Assembly (NCBI RefSeq): GCF_003173335.1
Contig: NZ_QGMZ01000014.1
Span: forward strand, 62,001 to 126,000
Direction of reading: 5' to 3'
Source: Methanospirillum stamsii
GTDB taxonomy: Archaea > Halobacteriota > Methanomicrobia > Methanomicrobiales > Methanospirillaceae
DNA length: 64,000 nucleotides
Every line of letters begins with the position of its first letter. Position 1 is the stretch's first letter. Below the pieces are notes generated by a model, which saw only the letters and a program-made list of their open reading frames with translations, did no database searches and had not been told where the DNA came from. A program made the translations under genes and the position numbers. Shown here in pieces: positions 41,218 to 62,784 of this stretch.

Positions 41218-41331
41218 GAGAAAAAAGGTAATTTTCCGAAAGTGAAAGTTGAAAAAAATGCCTTCACATTCCGAATATTTTTTAAAAATGGTCAATATTT
41301 AAATTTTATTTTATTTTTTAAATTTAATTTT

Positions 41332-41350
41332 TTTCACTTTCACCCTGTTT
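41332..41350 (+). promoter_or_regulatory. 19-bp element upstream of TATA box, copy 1
   Basis: TTTCACTTTCACCCTGTTT is identical to the minus-strand sequence at 62766-62784. Here it ends 7 nt before the TATA-like ATTTAAATA (41358-41366) of the gene starting at 41408. A partial inverted copy (GAAAGTGAAA) lies at 41238-41247. Probable activator or regulator binding site. Confidence 0.6.
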
Positions 41351-41357
41351 TTTAAAG

Positions 41358-41366
41358 ATTTAAATA
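41358..41366 (+). promoter_or_regulatory. TATA box of the unknown gene at 41408
   Basis: ATTTAAATA within GATTTAAATAGGG, preceded by a very T/A-rich 60-nt stretch. The expected start near 41388 leaves a ~20-nt leader holding the GGGTGA ribosome-binding site. Confidence 0.5.
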
Positions 41367-41407: not shown

Positions 41408-41818
41408 ATGCTCGAAAAAGCAGGATATATGCAGAAGGCAAAAACGGTAACTATTGATGAAGAAGGTCTTCCAACAGAAATAATAGAACTGATTCTTGAT
41501 GGAAAGAGATTTGGAATTGTTTTAGAAGAATTAAAAAAAGCAATCCGGGGAAAAAATTCTGCACGGACATTCCGGCTCCGAATTAATTGGAAACAATATA
41601 TCAGTACCACCACCGGTCTTGCGTATTTATCTGGATCAGGAAAAGCATTGAATATTGAACTTATGGATGGAAATCGGTATACTGTATCACTGGATTCATT
41701 AAAGTCATTATTAATCCGGAGATCTTTGTATGCACCGGTTGCCAGGCTGCCAATGAGCAGTTCCTTAAAGTATCCGGCCATGATGGGTAATGCTCAGCGT
41801 AATCTGGCTACCTGTTAA
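41408..41818 (+). CDS. Hypothetical protein of unknown family
   Basis: 136 residues from ATG 41408, chosen because GGGTGA (archaeal Shine-Dalgarno) sits 5-6 nt upstream; a GTG at 41399 lies inside that site. The N-terminal half is charged and mixed alpha/beta (VTIDEEGLPTEIIELILDGK), the middle basic (SARTFRLRINWKQY), then a beta-rich block (ALNIELMDGNRYTVSLDSLK) and a Met/Pro-rich tail. No membrane segment. No family recognised. It follows the cfbC operon but has its own promoter with the 19-bp element. Confidence 0.6.
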   Translation: MLEKAGYMQKAKTVTIDEEGLPTEIIELILDGKRFGIVLEELKKAIRGKNSARTFRLRINWKQYISTTTGLAYLSGSGKALNIELMDGNRYTVSLDSLKSLLIRRSLYAPVARLPMSSSLKYPAMMGNAQRNLATC

Positions 41819-62152: not shown

Positions 62153-62725
62153 TTATTTAAAAATCAGGTGCTGTTGTCCGTATTGTTTTGTGTCTCCTGA
62201 CGAAGGAGAGGTTCTTACAGAGCAGGGGGATTCATTGAGTGTTTTCTGTATTTTGTGATTTCTTCCTCCAACTGACTTCCTGATTTTATCTGAGAGAATG
62301 ATGTACCGGTCAGACAGTGTTCCAAGAGCTTCGATGATGTTGTCATGCCGGACCGATAGCAGAACAACCGGTGCAATGTATCGTGCATGGGTTTTGCATT
62401 CCTCGGCAAGGGCAGGGATACTACTCTCGTATTCTTCCAGGTGTTCATGAGAGTACTGGATGAAGAGCAGATGTGATTCATCTTTTTTCATGGCACCGAT
62501 AAGACCGGAGATTCCCTCAACATTTCTGTAATGGATACGGTGTTTAAGATTTACCGGGAGTGTAAGGAGTGGGTCTGTATATCTGAATGAAAGGTATGAG
62601 ATTGGGCCATGAGTTGTCTGTACTGGGCCTGATATTAGTGCAATCTGAAGATCCCGTCCTGGAGCGATATAAACTGAGAACGTATTCTGGTTAATTTTCT
62701 GAAGTAAATCATATCGCCCGGTCAT
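62153..62725 (-). CDS. Hypothetical protein under the shared 19-bp element
   Basis: 190 residues from ATG 62725; the preceding TTG (62728) is less likely. Mixed alpha/beta, no membrane helix: a beta-rich first half (TFSVYIAPGRDLQIALISGP), then LLFIQYSHEHLEEYESSIPA, then a basic Ser/Lys tail. No family recognised. A TATA-like TCTTTACATA ~28 nt upstream predicts a leaderless message, with the 19-bp element directly before it. Confidence 0.6.
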   Translation of the reverse strand: MTGRYDLLQKINQNTFSVYIAPGRDLQIALISGPVQTTHGPISYLSFRYTDPLLTLPVNLKHRIHYRNVEGISGLIGAMKKDESHLLFIQYSHEHLEEYESSIPALAEECKTHARYIAPVVLLSVRHDNIIEALGTLSDRYIILSDKIRKSVGGRNHKIQKTLNESPCSVRTSPSSGDTKQYGQQHLIFK

Positions 62726-62765
62726 CAACTACGCATCTTTCACAAAAGGTATGTAAAGATTATCC

Positions 62766-62784
62766 AAACAGGGTGAAAGTGAAA
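62766..62784 (-). promoter_or_regulatory. 19-bp element upstream of TATA box, copy 2
   Basis: On the minus strand this reads TTTCACTTTCACCCTGTTT, identical to 41332-41350, and ends about 6 nt before the TATA-like TCTTTACATA of the gene starting at 62725. Same orientation and spacing relative to the promoter as copy 1. Confidence 0.6.

Follow-up and report, generated by a model that had tools for sequence, protein, structure and literature searches.

In Halobacterium NRC-1, the 11-bp motif TTTCACTTTCA is found in the promoters of the UV-B-induced genes radA1, top6B, vng17, and vng280, upstream of the TATA box and ~50 nt ahead of the start codon (Boubriak et al. 2008, PMC2556686). The same study reported a similar motif for radA in other halophiles and in Methanospirillum hungatei and proposed an unknown regulator for the genes carrying TTTCACTTTCA (PMC2556686). 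Judged by the titles listed, no other archaeal paper among those searched contains this string. The promoter element of Methanospirillum stamsii described here has in common with the Halobacterium motif the 11-bp core, the location upstream of the TATA box, radA as the lead gene, and the presence of top6B among the genes preceded by the box. It differs from that motif in being longer (TTTCACTTTCRCCC, with a G preferred two bases further on), in heading about ten operons in a single methanogen, among them those with the PolB2 gene and with genes of unknown function, and in being accompanied, at some promoters, by a distal inverted partner that is apparently in phase with it. The element itself is of a known kind, since its 11-bp TTTCACTTTCA was published in 2008, and the regulon is largely new.

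In Sulfolobus, the A(N)TTTC motif, including ACTTTC, is required upstream of the BRE in ups promoters and is essential for one S. acidocaldarius ups promoter (PMC5817253). ANTTTC is bound by Orc1-2 (PMC9738581). The methanogen box resembles this element in containing ACTTTC, in being non-palindromic and directed at the BRE and TATA box, and in preceding DNA-damage genes; Orc paralogues are likewise found within the wider regulon. Unlike the Sulfolobus element, which is located at positions -44 to -39, next to the BRE, the box is longer and its hexamer is located about one helical turn further upstream (~25 bp between the centers of the hexamer and of the TATA box versus ~15 bp in Sulfolobus, with deduced transcription start sites in the methanogen). 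Unlike Sulfolobus Orc1-2, the universal Cdc6-2 is not under the control of the box. In bacteria, the LexA operator of the SOS response is palindromic and overlaps the promoter. The two regulons are similar in placing a recombinase, an error-prone polymerase cassette, and accessory genes under one short box. They differ by the non-palindromic sequence and activator position of the methanogen box, by its archaeal promoter context, by the absence of evidence for LexA, and by the unrelated proteins involved. The analyses presented below indicate that the 19-bp element is very probably the proximal operator, or activator site, of a DNA-damage-response (SOS-like) regulon, with the box most likely marking an archaeal equivalent of the SOS response of bacteria.

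Layout of the two promoters

The window, which is the whole 64,000-nt stretch of M. stamsii DNA that was analyzed (C6:62001-126000), contains two exact copies of the 19-mer TTTCACTTTCACCCTGTTT, at positions 41332-41350 (plus strand) in the promoter of the gene encoding P0001 and at positions 62766-62784 (minus strand) in the promoter of the gene encoding P0002. Both copies are intergenic, as reported by the first-pass annotation. No further match with up to 3 mismatches was detected in the window, 0.03 being expected in shuffles. The same annotation had placed a TATA-like box 6 to 7 nt downstream of the 19-mer; the TATA-like box was found, with a gap of 8 nt. The octamers TTTAAATA (41359-41366) and TTTACATA (62750..62757, minus strand) both begin 27 nt past the first base of the box. 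In the P0001 promoter, the box includes the core TTTCACTTTCACCC (41332-41345) and the ACTTTC hexamer (41336-41341), is conserved in the genome and the order, and is followed by a BRE-like stretch and the TATA box (together, 41351..41366). The box is located upstream of the BRE and overlaps neither the TATA box nor the start site. Rfam returned nothing convincing for the promoter region.

The first base of the box is located 76 nt from the ATG of P0001 (position 41408) and 59 nt from the ATG of P0002 (position 62725), both start codons being in agreement with the family alignments. Because of the latter distance, the P0002 mRNA probably has little or no leader, the positions of the transcription start sites following from the standard archaeal spacing between TATA box and start site.

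Copies of the element in the M. stamsii genome

Scanning of the 3.74-Mb genome revealed 4 exact 19-mers and a total of 10 copies when up to 2 mismatches were allowed; by chance, 5e-5 exact 19-mers and 0.03 exact 14-mer cores are expected in a genome of this size. All of the 10 copies precede a BRE/TATA-like sequence at about the same spacing (27 to 29 nt from the start of the box), and their flanks are unrelated to each other except for the BRE and TATA box. The two matches with 3 mismatches are both located in coding sequence and have no TATA-like box. The copies are not located at random coding positions, an outcome that, like a lack of conservation upstream of orthologues (see below), would have refuted the reading of the first-pass annotation. 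The 11-bp TTTCACTTTCA is exact at both window sites and in 7/10 of the genome promoters, the remaining three being one base off (TTTTACTTTCA twice and GTTCACTTTCA once).

In addition to the P0001 gene (41408 in the window), the box precedes four paralogues of one family, namely, P0002 (62725), C37:15865, C19:39317, and C6:61114, the last of which is located outside the window and leads an operon with PolB2. The box also precedes radA, encoding the main DNA repair recombinase (C78:19369), genes for glyoxalase and a flavodoxin-like protein (C82), a gene for a double Zn-ribbon protein (C8:44624), an operon for a Cys-rich protein and an acetate-CoA-ligase-like (ACS) protein (C8:66972; product name assigned by eye), and a locus without a clear first gene (C14). 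The small regulon proposed by the first-pass annotation is supported by these results; it is larger than was thought and includes DNA repair genes.

The fixed spacing to the TATA box is what would be expected of a constitutive core-promoter variant, in other words an extended BRE of strong, unregulated promoters. This explanation has very little probability, since the box is located upstream of the BRE proper, 14 of its base pairs are nearly invariant, and only about ten promoters per genome, with a common function, carry it.

Conservation in the genus, in the order, and beyond

The motif is present in 12/12 genomes of the genus Methanospirillum, preceding radA orthologues, P0002 paralogues, P0001, the Cys-rich/ACS operon, and the glyoxalase and Zn-ribbon genes. 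The radA genes recovered via the motif in the genus follow the box, in the form TTTCACTTTCGCCC in one subclade, and the boxed iRadA-like/PolB2 pair recurs in other Methanospirillum records. In the order, the core TTTCACTTTCRCCC was detected in 83 of 232 genomes, with all six families represented, versus about 1 match for the reversed pattern; the exact core is missing from the other 149 genomes, including all those of one genus (g23). A TATA box was present at the right offset for 106 of 137 sites; the corresponding figures were 8 of 132 for upstream control segments and 10% for the shuffles. The box is thus conserved upstream of orthologues in both the genus and the order, and its interpretation by the first-pass annotation as an activator-type site just upstream of the BRE and TATA box agrees with the whole-genome and comparative data.

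In the order outside the genus (90 boxed genes, 35 of them unclassified), the box precedes genes encoding P0001 homologues (n = 19), RadA (n = 11), Orc1/Cdc6 (n = 11), RNase_H_2-domain proteins (n = 6), RPA (n = 3), members of the P0002 family (n = 2), TnpB (n = 2), and a radical-SAM repair protein (n = 1). In the order, few members of the regulon are as consistent as P0001. Outside the order, the TTTCACTTTCRCCC pattern alone was moderately enriched over the reversed control; the boxed genes were top6B (n = 6), radA (n = 4), and those encoding Hef (n = 2), the P0002 family (n = 2), and RPA (n = 1), with 15/30 unclassified. Gene content suggests that these genomes belong to haloarchaea.

Several boxed genes are not obviously involved in repair. 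The presence of the box upstream of the glyoxalase/flavodoxin, Zn-ribbon, and Cys-rich/ACS operons in the genus would fit a real regulon responding to redox, oxidative, or detoxification stress, with radA as one target. Such a signal is highly unlikely, since these peripheral members were found boxed only in Methanospirillum, whereas the members conserved across families or outside the order act in recombination or replication-repair (radA, RPA, top6B, Hef, an RNase H exonuclease-like protein, and PolB2 together with its iRadA-like partner) and the genes carrying the motif in Halobacterium are UV-B induced (PMC2556686).

Two TnpB-like (IS200/IS605) genes, L039/L130 (G040) and L219 (G150), carry the box, recalling the putative transposase gene npa of Halobacterium, which is UV-B induced and is preceded by a near-match (PMC2556686). 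Genome G011, from the same family as M. stamsii, contains seven identical near-copies (ATTCACTTTCACCCGGTTA), which may correspond to a repeat family or to an expanded regulon. Five box matches were found in viral contigs, four within open reading frames and one in an intergenic region without a TATA box at the expected spacing (L303:2648-2666; IMGVR_UViG_3300037318_000083). Use of the box by viruses was rejected, the matches being mostly coding and devoid of a TATA box.

The G011 near-copies, if they are a repeat, and the boxed TnpB-like genes could be taken as signs of chance recurrence or of a mobile repeat carrying the sequence. The probability of this origin is practically nil: it is refuted by the genome scan (0.03 copies of the core expected, with unrelated flanks at the 10 sites except for the BRE and TATA box), by conservation in the genus and the order, and by the spacing to the TATA box, and the viral matches also argue against it.

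The SOS response was thought to be absent from halophilic archaea in a 2017 review (PMC5626843). A regulon defined by the box, extending from Methanospirillum to genomes outside the order, provides a concrete list of targets, comprising radA, the PolB2 cassette, RPA, Topo VI, Hef, Orc paralogues, and the P0001 and P0002 families. It also yields a consensus, rules for its spacing, and DNA that can serve as bait for the regulator, and DNA damage sensing in euryarchaea thereby becomes directly testable.

P0001, P0002, and the PolB2 operon

P0001 (136 aa; 41408..41818, plus strand) is encoded by a gene boxed in the genome, in the genus, and in many genomes of the order. It belongs to no known family: Pfam and NCBIfam contained no family for it, the PDB sequence search returned nothing reliable, and the AlphaFold model of P0001 alone had a pLDDT of 43 and was unusable.

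P0002 (190 aa; 62153..62725, minus strand) was assigned to a probable degenerate RAD51/RadA-like (iRadA-like) family. The first-pass annotation had considered the two downstream proteins as unrelated to each other and of no known family. They are mutually unrelated, but P0002 is not a singleton: three boxed paralogues are encoded at other loci of the genome, and its family is predicted to adopt a RAD51/RecA-like fold. The P0002 family had no reliable match in Pfam, in NCBIfam, or in the PDB sequence search, and profile-profile comparisons were not significant, either between P0002 and P0001 or between each of them and RadA. The family includes the protein encoded just before PolB2 (pairwise E value, 2e-6), and the model of this relative (pLDDT, 81.5) had RAD51, RecA, and RadA as its best PDB matches (E values from 3e-5, but TM of only ~0.5 to 0.6). 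The family alignment contains no Walker A motif. Its strongest conservation is a C-terminal QxxL, PIP-box-like in some members (RQTTLEAF and QNTLEGLW), which is predicted to be a PCNA-binding-like motif. Because comparison of sequence profiles gave no significant similarity to RadA, the iRadA-like assignment is based on the fold, the order of the structural elements, and the gene context, and that of P0002 itself is based on family membership.

The polymerase of the operon is the translesion polymerase PolB2 (NF004416 match; E value, 7e-276), in which IID replaces the DxD of other polymerases, as in S. islandicus PolB2. Based on the model and the alignment, the P0002 family fits the inactive RadA partner of PolB2 (PMC11791011, PMC4104785). 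The operon has in common with the PolB2-iRadA-PPB2 translesion mutasome an IID-containing PolB2 beside a predicted degenerate RAD51-fold protein and a clamp-binding-like motif at the C terminus of the latter (PMC11791011, PMC4104785). Unlike its counterpart in the mutasome, the iRadA-like protein is composed of ~165 to 190 aa and is multiplied into several separately boxed paralogues. PPB2 of the mutasome operon is a small helical protein with an N-terminal MGRT sequence (PMC11791011, PMC4104785); no convincing MGRT-type open reading frame was found near the PolB2 operon, and a divergent PPB2 may be encoded elsewhere.

Distal inverted element

The partial inverted copy of the box noticed by the first-pass annotation at positions 41238-41247 (GAAAGTGAAA, minus strand; consensus about CTTYYSCGAAAGTGAAG) is located exactly 94 bp upstream of the proximal box and is conserved in orthologous promoters. 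In the 250 bp upstream of the boxes, 20 inverted copies and 1 direct copy were found, versus 1 inverted copy in the background segments. The offsets are -94 for P0001 and the Cys-rich operon, -85/-84 for radA, and -75 for a further locus, with several species for each. Helical phasing is suggested by the occurrence of the 94-bp offset in two unrelated promoters and by differences of ~9 to 10 bp, about one helical turn, between offsets; with only four independent promoter families, the helical register of the distal and proximal elements is suggestive rather than proven. The distal element was not found outside the genus, and the radA promoter of one subclade of the genus is devoid of it.

Mode of action and candidate regulator

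We infer that the box acts by activation rather than by repression from its position upstream of the BRE, its directed, non-palindromic sequence, and the up-regulation of the Halobacterium box genes. General features of archaeal promoters point to the same mode of action. A sequence-specific protein would bind the box and contact TFB/TBP at the core promoter, and damaged DNA or stalled forks would turn on radA, the iRadA-like/PolB2 cassette, the P0002 paralogues, P0001, and other operons. The Methanospirillum radA, P0001, and Cys-rich/ACS promoters have a second half-box, which is inverted, located 94 or 85 bp upstream, and apparently in helical register with the box. This arrangement suggests that two bound regulators might interact through bending or looping of the intervening DNA.

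By analogy with Sulfolobus Orc1-2, an Orc1/Cdc6 paralogue is our guess for the leading candidate binder. Binding by a protein of this family, either Cdc6-2 or a boxed accessory Orc, is a sub-hypothesis compatible with the damage-response regulon, and we propose it tentatively, as a somewhat doubtful possibility. In favor of this proposal, ACTTTC is part of the box, and 11 boxed sites in four other families belong to accessory Orc1/Cdc6 paralogues. In addition, two or more Orc1/Cdc6 genes are present in nearly all near-complete genomes of the order, and PolB2 neighborhoods are enriched in orc1/cdc6 (PMC11791011, PMC4104785). Against this proposal, the universal Cdc6-2 was unboxed in 20/20 genomes checked outside the genus and in 10/10 within it, an accessory Orc was not found in Methanospirillum, the hexamer is displaced upstream by about one turn relative to that of Sulfolobus, and a resemblance over 6 bp is weak. 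Cdc6-2 as a boxed self-regulator in Methanospirillum was rejected, there being no box upstream of its gene, and the analogy with the self-regulating Orc1-2 is incomplete because the universal Cdc6-2 is unboxed.

The near-complete genomes of the order encode an initiator-type Cdc6, preceded in the genus by origin-type repeats, and nearly all of them encode at least one additional Orc1/Cdc6, so that co-occurrence of the box and Cdc6-2 is uninformative. The boxed accessory Orc1/Cdc6 proteins are divergent and branch outside the Cdc6-2 group in a tree with long branches, and the boxed accessory group may or may not be monophyletic. The Orc hypothesis is attractive but incomplete, and the regulator may instead be P0001 or an unseen protein.

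A broader scheme, which we regard as rather unlikely, is that of an ancient SOS-like regulon of the Methanomicrobiales and some outside lineages controlled by an Orc1/Cdc6-family activator, the Methanospirillum radA, P0001, and Cys-rich/ACS promoters having two opposed operators in helical phase (94/85/75 bp) that would form a looping or wrapping switch. If this scheme is true, such a switch is one not described for archaeal damage responses, and P0001 would be a new conserved damage-response protein.

Leaders and transcripts downstream of the box

The Cys-rich/ACS operon has a conserved leader of ~180 nt after the box (L009, L055, L058, L070, L074, and L078; about 35 to 215 nt past the box), in which two stems (TGTGCAG/CTGCACA and CCGGAGC/GCTCCGG) are accompanied by a C-rich loop and a T-tract. 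This leader is a candidate box-driven structured RNA. It displays little covariation because the stems hardly vary, and neither this leader nor the other box-driven leaders had a convincing Rfam match. In another genus of the family (L242, L243, L257, L261, L262, L266, and L268), the box is followed by a leader of ~200 nt, with weak common structure, and by a conserved protein (MSAMALRSLNLPGVGTKYE...). A further boxed transcript, conserved in Methanospirillum and without a clear first open reading frame (L010, L053, L069, L076, L081, L096, and L105), contains a small basic open reading frame (MRLRRR...EYPRSIIQLAG) ~350 nt downstream.
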